From: a bacterium
Lineage (GTDB): Bacteria; Armatimonadota; JACIXR01
Assembly: GCA_014360495.1 (NCBI GenBank)
Contig: JACIXR010000002.1
Location: forward strand, 62,001 to 126,000
Direction: 5' to 3'
DNA: 64,000 nucleotides
Of the stretch, positions 37,747 to 44,689 are shown in pieces. The translations under genes were made by a program, and so were the position numbers. The notes beneath the pieces are model-generated. The model ran no database searches, was not told the DNA's origin, and worked only from the letters and a program-made list of their open reading frames with translations. Position 1 is the first letter of the stretch. Each line of letters starts with the position of its first letter.

Positions 37747-37844
37747 AACGAGTAAATTACAAATGCTCGCGCATTCTTTGAAACTGTAAAATTAAGATGT
37801 TCTGGCTTCCTGGGAAACTTCGGAAAAAGAGAAATTCCTCAAGT

Positions 37845-37874
37845 TTGACTGAAAAGGGGAATTTGGAGTATAAT
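37845..37874 (+). promoter_or_regulatory. Strong promoter of the nurA-herA-mre11-rad50 operon
   Basis: TTGACT (37845-37850), 18 bases, then a perfect TATAAT (37869-37874). The predicted leader is about 15 bases and contains AAAAGGAGGG, seven bases before the nurA TTG start. The operon's four genes have gaps of only 3-5 bases, so this is probably their common promoter. Confidence 0.75.
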
Positions 37875-37895
37875 TTTCTTAAAAGGAGGGAAACC

Positions 37896-39020
37896 TTGCC
37901 CTGCTTCCCCGATAAATTCGCGGAAAATATAAAAAGCAAACAGGATAAGCTCTATTCCCTTTTCAAAAGAGAGCCCAAAAATGAAGACGAATCCTTTCTC
38001 AAACAGGAAATCGTCCATCATTGGAATCCCTTTCCCCAGCTCCCTCCCTCTGAGCTCCCCCTTTTCGCAGTAGATGGCTCAAACGCTTGTTTAGCTACTC
38101 AAGGCGGGATATATATCTCAATAGTTCAAGCTATCCTTCAAGGAAAGGATTGGAGGGAAGTTGAGGTTGATGTAGAGGCTTTTAGGAATACGCAAAAAGT
38201 GGATGTGGAGAGATTCCATCAAGTCCACCGTCAATGGCTGGAATGGAAAATAGGAAGCGATTACACAGAGAAAATCGCTAACTCTTTCCTCTTCATAGAT
38301 GGAAGTCTTTATATATCTCCTGTGCTTTACTATTGGGCACAGATTGCCCCCAGAATGCCCGAAGGTTTGGAGGATATGCCCCTCAGGGCATTGGAGGCTT
38401 TCCTCTCCCTCGCTGAAGTCTCCCTTCGCTTTAATATTAAACTCATAGGTATATCTAAAACAAGCAAGGGACACTTCTACCCCAGGTTGCTTTTGGGGAA
38501 GGAAACCGATATAACCGATTTGGAGATATTTTCATTTTGGACAGAAGGGGCAGGTTTCTCCACTCCTCTTCTCGTCGGTCTCGAAGCAGTCCCCCAACCT
38601 TTGGAGAGGCTCAAAAAGGATTTCCTACCTGAGCTTCCTTCCCCCAAAAGGGAGGAAGTTTCAAGCCGTCTTGATAATTTACTCCCCTCGCTTTCCGTTG
38701 TCCTCTTCTATATCCGCTTTGAGGAAGGGGACGAGATTTATAGAGTGGATACTCTCGCTCCCTCCGTGGGCTTAGAAACTAAAAAGGAAGAACTGGGGAA
38801 AATCGTTATGTGCGACTCGGAGATAATACATCCCATCCTATCCGTCCTTCTCTCCTCCCACGGTGGCTTCAATGTTTATCAAAACCTCTTGTATGTGGCG
38901 CATAACGAGGTTATTTTGAGGGGAACAGACCAGGATGTTTATTTAGCTCTTTTGAGGGAGCTCACAAATCTCCCCATAAGGAGGAGCAAGGTGGATACGA
39001 GATTTGGAAGGAGGTTTTAG
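37896..39020 (+). CDS. nurA: NurA-domain 5'-3' nuclease
   Basis: NurA is the nuclease partner of the HerA hexameric translocase in DNA-end resection. I start at the TTG at 37896 behind AAAAGGAGGG. A frame opening at 37797 would begin upstream of the promoter. The 374-residue protein has the NurA metal-site segments LFAVDGSNACLAT (Asp60) and FLFIDGSLYI (Asp135), the central LIGISKTSKGHFYPR, and the C-terminal LPIRRSKVDTRFGRRF. The core matches archaeal-type NurA. It is followed by herA after five bases, and the pairing is functional in known systems. NurA is common in archaea and patchy in bacteria. Confidence 0.9.
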   Translation: MPCFPDKFAENIKSKQDKLYSLFKREPKNEDESFLKQEIVHHWNPFPQLPPSELPLFAVDGSNACLATQGGIYISIVQAILQGKDWREVEVDVEAFRNTQKVDVERFHQVHRQWLEWKIGSDYTEKIANSFLFIDGSLYISPVLYYWAQIAPRMPEGLEDMPLRALEAFLSLAEVSLRFNIKLIGISKTSKGHFYPRLLLGKETDITDLEIFSFWTEGAGFSTPLLVGLEAVPQPLERLKKDFLPELPSPKREEVSSRLDNLLPSLSVVLFYIRFEEGDEIYRVDTLAPSVGLETKKEELGKIVMCDSEIIHPILSVLLSSHGGFNVYQNLLYVAHNEVILRGTDQDVYLALLRELTNLPIRRSKVDTRFGRRF

Positions 39021-39025
39021 ATGAT

Positions 39026-40747
39026 ATGGAGGTCGTGAAAACTCCTGAGCCTGTAGGATATATAGTGGGGAATGTGGAAACGCAGAGATTCAGCTTCGTA
39101 ACGGAGCCCACTATATGTCCGCCTCGGCTTGAATATCTCGTCGTTAGGGATATACCTGCAACCGAGCAGGGATTGGATAGGGTTGACGTCCTCGCCCAAG
39201 TGAGCAAGCTCCAAGTTGCCTCACAAATACTCGGCGAGGAGCTCACCTATCAGGAGGCAAGGGCTATTTTGGAGGGACTTTCCCCTCGCCCCAAGATAAT
39301 CGGAACGGCGGATGTCCTCGGCTATCTAACTCCCGATGGCGGAGTTAGGTTTCCTCGCCACGCTCCCCTTCCCGGTCAGCCCGTTTATTTAGCCTCCGAT
39401 GATTTCCTCCGCAATTTCTTCTCAAAGGATGTTGAATATGGCATAACGATAGGGAACCTCATCAACCGAGAGGGTGTAGAAGTTAAACTAAATCCAAATG
39501 GTTTGCGAAGGCATCTCGCCATTATCGCTCAGACGGGCGCTGGGAAATCCTATCTCGCTGGACTCCTTTTGGAGAATCTATTGAAGATGGGGGCAACCAT
39601 CCTTGTTTTCGACCCCAACTCCGATTATGTTATGATGCGTCTCACCCCTGACGGGAAAAAGACATCTTTTGCGGATAGAGTAAAGGTTTATAGAGTTCCT
39701 TTAAAGGCAGAGCGTCGCTACAGCGACGAGAAAATCGGTGGAAGCGAGGAATACACTATAAGATTCTGGACCCTAGAGGACGAGGATATATTTGAGATAG
39801 CCCAAATCCACGAAACTTGGGCGAGAATCAGGGAAACCCTCTCCAAATTGCTAAATACTTTGCGGAAAAGAAGCCCTTATTTCACCCCCAGCTATTTAAA
39901 GGAGTTAGTGGAAGAGATGATGCAGAGAGAGGATGCAGGCAGTGAGCTTGACGAGCTTGAGGAGATGGTAAGCGAGAGCGAATTGGAGGAAATTACGCTA
40001 AATATGCAGAGGAAGGCGAAGGCTGGCAAGGAAACAAGGGGTTCATTTTCCTATGAAGAGCTGAGAAGAGTCAAGCCATATGTTGACAGGCTTGCCACCT
40101 TGGAAATCTGGGGAGACAAAGACCTCCCTATAAATGATATCATCTCGCCTAAGAGATTGTCGGTAATAGACCTCGCGGGCTTGCAACAGCGGGCTATGGA
40201 GATAGTCGTTGATAGAACTCTGAGGGAAATATGGGAGAAGGCGGTGCTTGGGCAGTTGCCTCGTCCCTTGTTCATCTTTCTTGAGGAGGCACATAACTTC
40301 GTGCCAGGGAGGGGGAAACAAAGCAGGTGTGCGGAGATTATCAACAGGATAGCGGCAGAGGGAAGGAAATTTAAAGTATTCCTCGTCGTAATAACCCAGC
40401 GTCCCTATAAGATAAATCAGGATACCCTATCCCAATGCGGTAGTCAGATAATCATGAAATTGACGAATCCCGAGGACCAGGAAGCTGTCCGGACAGCCTC
40501 AGAGAACATCTCCGAGGCACTTCTAGCCGATTTGCCTGGCTTAAACACTGGTGAGGCGGTTGTATTGGGCGAGCTGACGAGGGTGCCCGTGATGATAAAG
40601 GTGGGCAAGAGGGAATCGGCTGAGGGCGGAGCGGATGTGGATATCGTTAAGGAGCTTCAGTCGGCTTTACAGGAAAGCAAAACTGAAGTCCCAATCATCA
40701 CAACTGAACCCCTAAAAGACGATTTGATGGGTGGAGGTGTGCTTTAA
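39026..40747 (+). CDS. herA: HerA hexameric DNA translocase
   Basis: FtsK-like ATPase that, with NurA, unwinds and degrades DNA ends. The N-terminal HAS barrel starts PEPVGYIVGNVETQRFSF. The RecA-like core has Walker A AQTGAGKSYLAGLLLE (about 168), Walker B PLFIFLEEAHNFVP (about 412) and the sensor/Arg-finger region VVITQRPYKINQDTLSQC (about 455). A central helical insertion (about 270-360) and the C-terminal brace LPGLNTGEAVVLGELTRVPV complete the HerA layout. At 573 residues it is full length. The start follows GGAGG within the nurA end. Confidence 0.95.
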   Translation: MEVVKTPEPVGYIVGNVETQRFSFVTEPTICPPRLEYLVVRDIPATEQGLDRVDVLAQVSKLQVASQILGEELTYQEARAILEGLSPRPKIIGTADVLGYLTPDGGVRFPRHAPLPGQPVYLASDDFLRNFFSKDVEYGITIGNLINREGVEVKLNPNGLRRHLAIIAQTGAGKSYLAGLLLENLLKMGATILVFDPNSDYVMMRLTPDGKKTSFADRVKVYRVPLKAERRYSDEKIGGSEEYTIRFWTLEDEDIFEIAQIHETWARIRETLSKLLNTLRKRSPYFTPSYLKELVEEMMQREDAGSELDELEEMVSESELEEITLNMQRKAKAGKETRGSFSYEELRRVKPYVDRLATLEIWGDKDLPINDIISPKRLSVIDLAGLQQRAMEIVVDRTLREIWEKAVLGQLPRPLFIFLEEAHNFVPGRGKQSRCAEIINRIAAEGRKFKVFLVVITQRPYKINQDTLSQCGSQIIMKLTNPEDQEAVRTASENISEALLADLPGLNTGEAVVLGELTRVPVMIKVGKRESAEGGADVDIVKELQSALQESKTEVPIITTEPLKDDLMGGGVL

Positions 40748-40750
40748 GCT

Positions 40751-41902
40751 ATGGTGAAAATGGTCATCTGTGCTGATACACATCTCAATGCTTATTACGC
40801 AAAGATGAGACCCGAACAGCTGGAGAAAAGAAGAGAGTATTTGAGGAATGCCTTTAAATCCGTCGTTGATTTCGCGATAGAAAAGAAAGTGGATATTTTC
40901 CTTCATGCGGGCGATTTATTTGATATGCCTGACCCCCGCTACTTGGAGCTTTTATTCGTGTTTAGGGAATTAATGCGGTTGAAAGAGGCGGGAATTAAGA
41001 CCTTCATGATTGGCGGGACCCACGATATTCCCAAGGCGAGATTTGAAGCGGGAGGAGCAGCGAGCATACTCATTTATGAGATTGGGCAAGTAGCGAGGGT
41101 TTTCCGAGGGGCAAAGATTCAATCCGAGACAATAAATGTGGGAGGAAAATCAATAACCATAGCTGGCATCTCCTGCGACCCAAGGATTAGGGATGGAAAT
41201 CCCTTAGAGGGATTGGAGTTTCATCCCGATAACAGCGATTTCACCATTTTTATGTTCCACTATGCGATAGAGGGGAGGATACCCCAAAGGTATGAGGGAG
41301 CAGTAGTTACCCTTCATTGGTTGCGCCAATTTCCCGCCGACCTCTTTATCGCTGGACATCTCCACCCTCATGCGAATTTTGATTTGGAGCGCAAATCCGT
41401 GATCATACCCGGCGCAACTGAGCGTTTTGACTTCGGCGAGGAAAAAAACGATTGCGGATTCTATTATCTTCAACTCACGGATAAACCGAAGATTGAATAC
41501 CAAAAAATATCGGCACAGCCTATGCAAAATATTGAAATTCATAGCGACGAGATAATACAAAAACCAAAGGGGGAGCGGCTGGGCTATCTACTATCCCGCA
41601 TAAAGGAAGTTTCCCATCCAGAGAAACTGCTTAAATGTAAATTGATAGGAGAAATTGAAAACGATGTTTTGATGGAGGTTCCCTTTAATCAAATCTTGGA
41701 GGAAGGGAACAAAAGCAATTTCTTCTTCGATTTGGATTGGCAAGGTTTAAAGATTAAGAGGGGAGGTTTTGAGGGAAGTGGAGAGGGTCCAACAAATGTT
41801 GAGGAGGAGATGAAGTCCGTGGCGAGGAGCATTGAAGAGGAGGAGGAACTCGTCAAAGAAGCGCTTGATTTAGCCCTTTCAAAATGGAGGGAGGCGAGAT
41901 AA
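40751..41902 (+). CDS. Mre11/SbcD/YhaO-like phosphoesterase with altered motif III
   Basis: A 383-residue calcineurin-type phosphoesterase. Motif I is CADTHLN (Asp9, His11), motif II HAGDLFD (Asp55), motif IV MFHYAIEG (His170) and motif V AGHLHPHANF (His203, His205). TERFDFGEEK is typical of Mre11/YhaO. Motif III, normally GNHD, is GGTHDIP, with Thr90 where the metal-binding Asn should be. His91 and Asp92 are kept. The change may lower or alter nuclease activity. The C-terminal part (about 250-383) is acidic and would bind the coiled-coil base of the Rad50-like partner encoded three bases downstream. Confidence 0.9.
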   Translation: MVKMVICADTHLNAYYAKMRPEQLEKRREYLRNAFKSVVDFAIEKKVDIFLHAGDLFDMPDPRYLELLFVFRELMRLKEAGIKTFMIGGTHDIPKARFEAGGAASILIYEIGQVARVFRGAKIQSETINVGGKSITIAGISCDPRIRDGNPLEGLEFHPDNSDFTIFMFHYAIEGRIPQRYEGAVVTLHWLRQFPADLFIAGHLHPHANFDLERKSVIIPGATERFDFGEEKNDCGFYYLQLTDKPKIEYQKISAQPMQNIEIHSDEIIQKPKGERLGYLLSRIKEVSHPEKLLKCKLIGEIENDVLMEVPFNQILEEGNKSNFFFDLDWQGLKIKRGGFEGSGEGPTNVEEEMKSVARSIEEEEELVKEALDLALSKWREAR

Positions 41903-41905
41903 GGG

Positions 41906-44689
41906 ATGAGATTGAGACGGTTAATGGCGGAAGGGTTTAAACATTTGAGAGGGATAAATCTCTTCTTCCCCTCAAAGGGAACATTTCTCATACAGGGAAG
42001 CAATGAGGCTGGGAAAAGCTCGCTTTTTGAGGCTGTCTTTTTCAGCCTTTTCGGTAGACCATTACAAGCAAGGAGCTCGGAGGACCTCATCGGCTATGGA
42101 CTGCAGGAGGCTCTTGTCTATTTGGAAATGGAAATAGGCAATGAAATCCTGGGAATAGAGAGAAGGATAAGGAGAGGGAAAACAAATGTAGCGAGGCTCC
42201 GCATAGGAAGTGAAGTAATAACCACTGCGAGGGAGGTCAACAGGAGAATTCAAGAGGAACTACATCTTGACGCTGATACTCTTTTGAACTCCTGTTTCGT
42301 GGAACAGAAGGCGCTGGAGAAATTGGAAGGAATGGATAAGTCGGCGCGGGAAAGCGCAGTGATGAAACTTCTCAATCTTGATAGGATGCAGGCGATAGAA
42401 GAGGAGTTAAAGGTAACAAGGGAAGACGAGAGAAACCTGGAGGATTGGGAAAGGAAGAGAAGGTTTGCAGAGATAGAGAAGGAAATTCCCGAAGTTGAAA
42501 AGGAAATAGCCCATATAGAGTGGTTGTTGAAGTTCTGGAATGTAAAGCAACTGTTGAGCGAGGCGGAGAGGAATAAAAAAGAGGCGGAAGAGGCAGAGAA
42601 GGAGATACCGAAGCTAAGGGAGGAGAGGAACAAGTGGCAGGAAAGAGCAAAGGAGCTCAAGGAGACAAGGGAAAAGGAACACAAGGTGGAAGGGATACGC
42701 TCTTTAATCCGCCTGTTGATGGAAAAGGAGAGCGCCCTCATCAGTTTGTCCTCCCAGCTTAAAGAGGTTGCAAGGGCAAAAGAGGAATTGCCGGAGCTTC
42801 GGAAAAGAAGAAAGAAGGCGGGAATTTTGCTTCATATTTTGAAGAAATTAACCAATCTCTCCCAACTAATGGATAAAATAGAGAATTTGTTGGGTTTGCA
42901 GCGCCAGCTTAACCAAGAGATGAGCAGGAAGGAAATCTTGGAATTGGATTTAGAGGAAAAGGAGAAAGAGATAGGAAATAAAAAGAAGAAAATAGAGCTG
43001 TTAGAAAAATGGAGAGAAAGAGTAATCAATAAAGAGAAAGTTGAGGAAAAGAACAAGCTGAAGGAAAGCGCACAATTTTTTAGAAATATCGGCTTAGCGG
43101 GTATTATTTGTTGCGGTCTGCTTCTATTTCTTTTACTTACTCCGCTAAAAATTCTCGCTGCTATTTCCCTGATTCCCTTCATCTGCGCCCTTCTAGCATT
43201 CACAAAACGAGGCAAGATTTTAATAAGGGTTGCTAAAATAGAAGGGGAACTAGGGGATAGGGAGGAATTTGACCTAAAAGAATTGGAGAAGCAACTTCAC
43301 GAAGTGGGTTTAACGCCCGCTTATGATGTCCAATGGGGAGAAAATGCTTTAGATAAAGAGAAAAGGGAAGAGGAGTTGCTTGAAAGGAGCAAAGAGTCAA
43401 TTAGAAGGGAGATTATCAGAGCGGAAAATAACATAGAAAATCTAAGGAAACAAGCGAATGAACAGTTAAGTCAGCTTCCTCCCTCCTGGCAAAGCCTTCA
43501 GCCAGAGCATCTTATTCAAAAATCCGATAGGATAAAGAAATTATTGGAGGAAAGAGGGAGCAAAAATAAACAATTAGCTGAGGAATACGAGTTGTCTATT
43601 GATGAAACCGAGCTGACAAGGGAGTTGGGGAAGCTGGATAGCGAGATAAGAAATCTTGAGCAATTCATTAATAGCGAAGCGGAATTGAAGGGCAAGAGGG
43701 AGGAACTGGAAAAGGAAACGCAACAAATCAAAAAGAAAATAGAGGAAAGCGCCCTTCCCTTCAATGAAGATGTTAAAGATATCTATGCTCTTGAAAGCTG
43801 GGAGGAGCTGAGTAGAAGATTGAAGCGGGAACTGGATAAAATGGAAAGGGAGAGACCGGAGGAAAACCTTCAATTGGCGATATCTCGTCTTGCCGGGCAG
43901 GAGCAGAAGGTGAAGTCCTTAAGGGAAAAAGCAGTTGAATTGGAGAGAAATGCAGAGGAGATACTTAAGGAGTTAGGAGGCGAATTTCCTCCTGAGCTTC
44001 CCTCTCTTGAAGAACTTAATAACTCTTTGGTAGAAAAGAAAGCATATTACCAGCGACTGGAAAACGAGAGGAAATCCCTAAGGGAATTGATAATTGGAGA
44101 AATCCCCCCGCTTGAGGAATGCCAGAGGGAATGCGAGAGATTGAGGAGGGAGCACAAAGTGAGGGAGCTCAGCGTGAGGATTTTAGAGACCGCGCGCAGA
44201 AACATAACCCAGAGAATCCTTCCCCGCACTATAGACCACATGTGGCGATTGCTTCCCCTTATAACCAATGATAGGTATAGGCAGGTTGACTTAGACCCCG
44301 ATACCTTCAGAATCAAAGTCTACGATGAGAGGGCAGGCGATTGGAAGGAAAAGAACATCTTCAGTGGGGGAACGAGAGACCAGATGTCCCTCGCCCTCCG
44401 CCTCTCCTTCGCTCTCGCCTCTCTGCCCCAAGAGAGGGGAGCAGCTCCTTCCTTCCTCTTCCTTGATGAGCCCCTCTCCTCGTTTGATGAGCAAAGAAAG
44501 GAAGCGCTTATCAGGGTTATAACCGAGGGTGAAATCGCGGAGAGATTCGACCAAATCTTCGTCATAAGCCATACCCCGCTCCTCAACCCAAACCTCTTTC
44601 ACTATTACATCGTTATGGAAAATGGAAGGGTCAGGGAATGCAGCGATGAGCTCAAACCTCCCGAGGAGAGGCCCCAAATCCTCTTATAA
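41906..44689 (+). CDS. Rad50/YhaN-like coiled-coil ATPase with membrane hairpin in place of zinc hook
   Basis: A 927-residue SMC-like ATPase. The N-terminal lobe has FLIQGSNEAGKSSLFEAVFF (Walker A) and a following Q-loop region. Long charged coiled coils span about 180-390 and 440-780. The C-terminal lobe has the signature FSGGTRDQMSLALRLS, Walker B FLFLDEPLSSFDEQR and the H-loop ISHTP. At the apex of the coil, where Rad50 and SbcC carry a CxxC zinc hook, residues 395-432 instead form two hydrophobic segments separated by a short TPLK turn. This suggests membrane insertion. It matches the plan I recall for Bacillus YhaN, the partner of YhaO. The end overlaps the convergent GHL10 gene by six bases. 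Confidence 0.9.
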   Translation: MRLRRLMAEGFKHLRGINLFFPSKGTFLIQGSNEAGKSSLFEAVFFSLFGRPLQARSSEDLIGYGLQEALVYLEMEIGNEILGIERRIRRGKTNVARLRIGSEVITTAREVNRRIQEELHLDADTLLNSCFVEQKALEKLEGMDKSARESAVMKLLNLDRMQAIEEELKVTREDERNLEDWERKRRFAEIEKEIPEVEKEIAHIEWLLKFWNVKQLLSEAERNKKEAEEAEKEIPKLREERNKWQERAKELKETREKEHKVEGIRSLIRLLMEKESALISLSSQLKEVARAKEELPELRKRRKKAGILLHILKKLTNLSQLMDKIENLLGLQRQLNQEMSRKEILELDLEEKEKEIGNKKKKIELLEKWRERVINKEKVEEKNKLKESAQFFRNIGLAGIICCGLLLFLLLTPLKILAAISLIPFICALLAFTKRGKILIRVAKIEGELGDREEFDLKELEKQLHEVGLTPAYDVQWGENALDKEKREEELLERSKESIRREIIRAENNIENLRKQANEQLSQLPPSWQSLQPEHLIQKSDRIKKLLEERGSKNKQLAEEYELSIDETELTRELGKLDSEIRNLEQFINSEAELKGKREELEKETQQIKKKIEESALPFNEDVKDIYALESWEELSRRLKRELDKMERERPEENLQLAISRLAGQEQKVKSLREKAVELERNAEEILKELGGEFPPELPSLEELNNSLVEKKAYYQRLENERKSLRELIIGEIPPLEECQRECERLRREHKVRELSVRILETARRNITQRILPRTIDHMWRLLPLITNDRYRQVDLDPDTFRIKVYDERAGDWKEKNIFSGGTRDQMSLALRLSFALASLPQERGAAPSFLFLDEPLSSFDEQRKEALIRVITEGEIAERFDQIFVISHTPLLNPNLFHYYIVMENGRVRECSDELKPPEERPQILL

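Follow-up and report, generated by a model that had tools for sequence, protein, structure and literature searches.

The last gene of a nurA-herA-mre11-rad50 operon in this armatimonadotal genome encodes a Rad50-like ATPase in which two strongly hydrophobic segments, joined by a short turn, occupy the predicted apex of the coiled coil. The hairpin feature is real and conserved. We consider that the protein is probably the ATPase of an Mre11-Rad50-type complex whose zinc hook has been replaced by a two-helix membrane hairpin. The features concerned are given below, with positions counted in the window, that is, the whole stretch of 64,000 nucleotides that was analysed.

37797..39020, + strand: nurA, NurA nuclease, first gene of the operon; 407 aa; Pfam NurA PF09376, E 1.2e-16, 61.4 bits, cut-off 21
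39026..40747, + strand: herA, HerA-type hexameric translocase; 573 aa; Pfam DUF87/HerA central domain, E 6.6e-38
40751..41902, + strand: mre11-like metallophosphoesterase; 383 aa; Pfam Metallophos, E 9.7e-14
41906..44689, + strand: rad50-like ATPase with apical hydrophobic hairpin; 927 aa; SMC_N, AAA_27 and AAA_23 above cut-offs
41996..42019, + strand: Walker A, GSNEAGKS; residues 31-38
42419..43087, + strand: ascending coiled-coil arm; residues 172-394, from model helix and heptad power
43088..43138, + strand: predicted membrane helix 1, IGLAGIICCGLLLFLLL; residues 395-411, KD19 2.43 (window from 395)
43139..43150, + strand: turn, TPLK; residues 412-415
43151..43201, + strand: predicted membrane helix 2, ILAAISLIPFICALLAF; residues 416-432, KD19 2.42 (window from 414, overlapping)
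43202..44263, + strand: descending coiled-coil arm; residues 433-786, from model helices and heptad power
44363..44383, + strand: ABC signature, SGGTRDQ; residues 820-826
44453..44473, + strand: Walker B, FLFLDEP; residues 850-856

In the translation of the open reading frame, residues 395-432 (exactly 43088-43201) consist of the two segments flanking TPLK and are followed by TKRGK. The maximum 19-residue Kyte-Doolittle mean (KD19) reaches 2.48 in this hairpin versus 0.74 in the remainder of the protein, which bears out the two hydrophobic segments and the turn claimed in a first-pass annotation of this DNA. The value lies about 3 standard deviations above the mean maximum of shuffled copies (1.50 ± 0.32), the top among 2000 shuffles being 2.81. 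On a biological-hydrophobicity scale, helix 1 sums to -3.9 and helix 2 to -1.9. The same annotation had claimed that the CxxC hook is absent throughout; indeed, a scan of all 927 residues finds no CxxC, so that a hook at another site is ruled out. Cysteines are located at positions 130, 402, 403, 427, 739, 743 and 912. A metal site formed by C402, C403 and C427 within the hairpin was rejected, since this set is not fully kept in two congeneric proteins.

The protein has the attributes of the Rad50/SbcC superfamily, namely Walker A, ABC signature and Walker B distributed over two lobes, a long coil and an Mre11-type neighbour. Rad50 PDB chains match both heads by sequence, and the Foldseek matches to an AlphaFold2 model are Smc5/6, MRN Rad50, condensin, MukB, JetC and Rad50 heads. 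The model (32 family sequences aligned, mean pLDDT 83) comprises a helix over residues 172-410, a break at 411-421 and a return helix at 422-449. This helix-break-helix arrangement indicates that residues 395-432 form the apex of an antiparallel coil, as had been proposed, with the qualification that pLDDT at the modelled tip is low (about 49-68) and that the model contains no membrane. The hairpin is thus modelled at the coil position where hook-bearing relatives carry CxxC. Heptad power is 2.75 for residues 172-394 of the ascending arm, versus 1.34 after shuffling, and 3.47 for residues 450-735 of the descending arm, versus 1.31.

Relatives were gathered by scanning one genome per species with a search keyed on the head peptides LN[ST]CFVEQ and DEPLSSFD, so that features of the tip were not selected for. 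The scan returned 78 loci, 75 of them encoding proteins of sufficient length for an apex call; many of these rows are closely related, and the counts given here are not independent observations. The family extends over Chloroflexota (Anaerolineae, Ktedonobacteria and others), Armatimonadota, Caldisericota, actinobacterial Rubrobacter/Thermobaculum MAGs and two archaeal MAGs labelled Methanophagales and Methanosarcinales. Three further members (L050, L122, L124) lie on contigs labelled as Nitrospira, Proteobacteria and Actinomycetota MAGs, for which mis-binning or mislabelling is possible. In 66/75 proteins, KD19 reaches 1.96 or more in a stretch at the apex, and an apical hook was found in no family member examined.

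Several known systems resemble this one in part. Archaeal Mre11-Rad50-HerA-NurA operons unite the same four gene families. Archaeal Rad50 bears a CxxC zinc hook; in the Salinigranum protein, CxxC is found at 453 and a hydrophobic apex is absent. The window protein differs from archaeal Rad50 in bearing the hairpin, and a head tree (see below) does not place its heads among the hook-bearing proteins. Bacterial SbcC/SbcD and zinc-hook Rad50 share with it the ABC heads, the long antiparallel coil and a metallophosphoesterase partner. They differ from it in their SGGE signature and in a coil CxxC, both present in every one of the 16 SbcC/Rad50 proteins compared. In a set of 11 hook-bearing SbcC/Rad50 proteins checked for contrast, all have an apical CxxC, SGGE and a coil KD of at most 1.1. 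The head similarity extends to LmuB of the Lamassu system, whose PADLOC profile scores 94 bits with the window protein. Here, however, the partners are HerA, NurA and Mre11, and no Lamassu effector was recognised: PADLOC gives no LmuA match among the four operon proteins, the other neighbours having been judged by eye. Identity with Lamassu is considered unlikely, the likeness recognised being one of heads only.

The closest parallel in plan is YhaN (SbcE) with its partner YhaO (SbcF) in Bacillota such as B. subtilis and E. faecalis. An E. faecalis locus encodes, in order, a YlbF family protein, a YhaO-type exonuclease, an AAA ATPase, an HD-domain protein, a PrsA-type isomerase, YtxH, HIT and an ABC transporter, and we take it, from what is known of B. 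subtilis, to be the yhaO-yhaN-yhaM neighbourhood. Its YhaN has an apical hydrophobic hairpin, PLWLLLGSILVLLGFFLPSPLKWGLVLVGVSFIA, with an SPLK turn and no CxxC, so that the likeness to YhaN pointed out in the first-pass annotation is borne out by a syntenic example. Clostridial and armatimonadotal YhaN-like proteins have a hydrophobic apex too, and two long proteobacterial proteins labelled 'YhaN family' (L128, L184) do not. YhaN/SbcE already has the hairpin plan, and the present family is a further group with the same plan. The two share Rad50-like heads, the absence of a hook, the hydrophobic apical hairpin, a signature of T-x-[DE]-Q type and an Mre11-like gene directly upstream. The window locus differs in having HerA and NurA as partners, no YhaM, and no yhaO-yhaN-yhaM order. 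In detail, the signatures are SGG[TA]xDQ in the family versus SxGTx[DE]Q in YhaN and SGGE in hook proteins, and the type shared by the first two hints at common ancestry.

In a head tree of 57 rows, the family (support 95/79), YhaN (100/100) and the hook-bearing Rad50/SbcC proteins (92/96) form three separate groups, which rules out the window protein as a member of YhaN. An earlier tree of 43 rows agrees with the three groups, although its E. coli SbcC row had been wrongly cut. Long branches make the branching order among these groups unsure, and the two hairpins may thus have a common origin or have converged. The N-terminal AAA_27 domain of the window protein scores 29.5 bits (cut-off 22), a match that many other ATPases give as well.

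The four operon genes are co-directional and separated by gaps of 3-5 bp. They are flanked by oppositely directed genes that, by eye, encode carbohydrate-active and secreted proteins. NCBIfam models for archaeal HerA score 186-204 bits with the herA product, under their cut-offs, and the best model for the mre11-like product is Mre11_Sulfo (80 bits, also under cut-off). Motif III of this Mre11-like protein is GTHD (residues 89-92, window 41015-41026), with Thr at the position of the Asn metal ligand of Mre11. Across 51 family Mre11 proteins, this position is N in 28, V in 10 and T in 9, and at the first His of GHxH the counts are H 26, Y 16 and D 8. Judging from these residues, some Mre11 proteins of the family may have an altered nuclease activity.

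The locus seems to be the sole Mre11-Rad50 system of this genome, in which no match to Rad50_zn_hook and no other SbcC/Rad50 was found at the thresholds used. A profile search at the thresholds used did not find a second NurA in the genome either. A search with the single PDDEXK_1 model returned one stand-alone frame of 245 aa and nothing else, and by this model no AddAB/RecBCD-type nuclease was seen in the genome. As to the coupling with HerA-NurA put forward in the first-pass annotation, it holds for the tightly spaced window operon, but adjacency is found in only part of the family. HerA and/or NurA genes adjoin in the genus, in Caldisericota (HerA upstream, NurA a few kb downstream of the rad50-like gene), in several Chloroflexota, including a MAG (L087) in which NurA and HerA precede the hairpin-bearing Rad50, and at other armatimonadotal loci. 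NurA is encoded in 20/23 genomes that have a family member and is missing from that of L049 and from both archaeal MAGs. In the latter (L118, L120), the hairpin-bearing Rad50 adjoins Mre11. A functional link of the family with HerA-NurA is plausible, though the genes are often apart, and for the window operon we think it likely that the ATPase belongs with HerA and NurA to a single pathway of DNA-end processing.

The purpose of such a pathway could be a different one. By the title of a 2010 study cited in PMC3896406, YhaN (SbcE) is reported in competence as well as in break repair, and PMC3896406 itself places yhaONM, peroxide-induced in B. pumilus, within its SOS section. The competence report for this analogous protein, together with the matching of Rad50-like heads by PADLOC LmuB (Lamassu) profiles, would fit a membrane-anchored complex that is dedicated to DNA arriving at the membrane by uptake, conjugation or phage injection, and not to chromosome repair. 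Inspection by eye recognised no defence or uptake gene beside the operon, however, and the lack of a Lamassu effector among the operon proteins, as well as the apparent status of the locus as the only Mre11-Rad50 system of the genome, also speak against this dedicated role, to which we give perhaps one chance in four. As for the location of YhaN, S. haemolyticus YhaN, predicted to be a membrane protein, was recovered by surface shaving, which is weak evidence, cytoplasmic proteins having been among those recovered (PMC7137321). No report of a membrane hairpin in YhaN/SbcC-like proteins was found in the literature searched, the original SbcE paper lying outside that search.

Insertion of residues 395-432 into the membrane is very likely, as judged from hydrophobicity scales and charge counts standing in for topology prediction, and this claim of the first-pass annotation gains support from the conservation pattern as well. 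Both congeneric genomes carry the feature, in proteins 52-54% identical to that of the window, and its presence there and in most of the family rules out chance or an artefact of a single assembly. Among the three congeners, identity is 76-80% in the heads, 36-53% in the arms and 26-37% in the hairpin. The hairpin is thus the least conserved segment within the genus, yet its KD of 2.39-2.61 is maintained, and the turn is kept as [ST]PxK (TPLK in the window, SPVK and SPFK in the two congeners). Constraint on hydrophobicity and on the turn, with the sequence otherwise free, is the pattern expected of a membrane anchor.

The wider family conforms to this picture. Detailed statistics were taken from the 64 members with a core of at least 31 residues. 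Family proteins range from 581 to 1703 aa, and the lengths of the parts before and after the core change together (r = 0.90, n=64), so that the hydrophobic stretch stays near the middle of the protein. The core has a median of 42 residues and an interior nearly free of charge (30 charged among 2388 residues). The mean hydrophobicity profile consists of two lobes with a polar dip mid-core, and 59/64 members are individually two-lobed, the dip having been sought in the central 40% only. Per 15 residues, the flanks contain 3.33 and 2.73 K/R versus 2.24 in the arms, and 1.53 and 1.59 D/E versus 2.65 (n=64). Being rich in K/R and poor in D/E on either side, they follow the positive-inside rule as expected of an N-in/C-in hairpin.

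In the window protein itself, each helix has only about 17 residues and helix 2 contains P424, both of which count against full spanning; the turn holds one Lys. These features would suit a short re-entrant or peripheral hairpin that dips reversibly into the inner leaflet, but across the family the median of 42 residues fits a pair of complete passes together with a turn, and we regard contact of this non-spanning kind as unlikely. Soluble dimerisation, in which two tips would pack as a four-helix hydrophobic bundle in place of the hook and touch no membrane, agrees with the dimerising function of the known, mutually exchangeable apex modules, zinc hook and SMC hinge (PMC6969161), and with the soluble-looking beta domain of a sister subclade (see below), but it is improbable given an almost uncharged core of about 42 residues, a sequence that drifts while hydrophobicity is kept, and positive-inside flanks that such a bundle would not be expected to have.

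The subclade in question comprises hairpin-less Chloroflexota proteins (n=7: L074, L075, L091, L092, L097, L100, L107). At the apex of the L091 model lies a four-stranded beta domain, with which the other six align; a PDB fold search found no match to this domain among solved structures. Four of the seven (L074, L075, L091, L097) were placed in the head tree, where they nest together inside the family, which makes loss or replacement of the hairpin in their lineage most likely. On another branch, the apex of an Abditibacteriaceae member (L108, genome G006) lacks hook, hairpin and beta domain alike. Such members indicate that the family does not strictly require a membrane anchor. Elsewhere, two P-loop ATPases of about 1300 aa (L190 and L191, from G056 and G009) are strongly hydrophobic over a stretch in mid-coil (KD 2.9 and 2.6), with P-loops SPNGGGKT or GLNGSGKT and no recognised SGGE or DQ signature.

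Under the preferred reading of a membrane-spanning hairpin, the ATPase head, formed by both ends of the polypeptide, would reside in the cytosol, and the antiparallel coil would project from it to the inner membrane. Residues 395-432 would cross that membrane as a hairpin of N-in/C-in topology, which would put the TPLK turn on the outer side. Two Rad50 arms could then be held together side by side in the bilayer instead of by zinc, although dimerisation of the tips in the membrane is a suggestion we put at somewhat below even. Mre11 at the heads, together with HerA and NurA, would clear and resect DNA ends while the complex is tied to the membrane. In its most general form, and again only tentatively, the model assumes that a third, widespread Mre11-Rad50 group (Chloroflexota, Armatimonadota, Caldisericota and some archaea) works from the membrane, that its tips pair via transmembrane helices so that the bilayer takes over from the zinc hook, and that with HerA-NurA it makes up a membrane-anchored resection machine.

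The apex of Rad50 is usually regarded as a dimerisation module, and its zinc hook can be exchanged with the SMC hinge (PMC6969161). Here, a natural family is found in which this apex has turned into a predicted membrane anchor, beside a resection operon of archaeal type. Together with the subclade in which a small beta domain takes its position, the hairpin family makes the true role of the Rad50 apex testable. If the proposal is true, some cells may handle DNA breaks with a machinery that is tied to the membrane, a question that now becomes testable.
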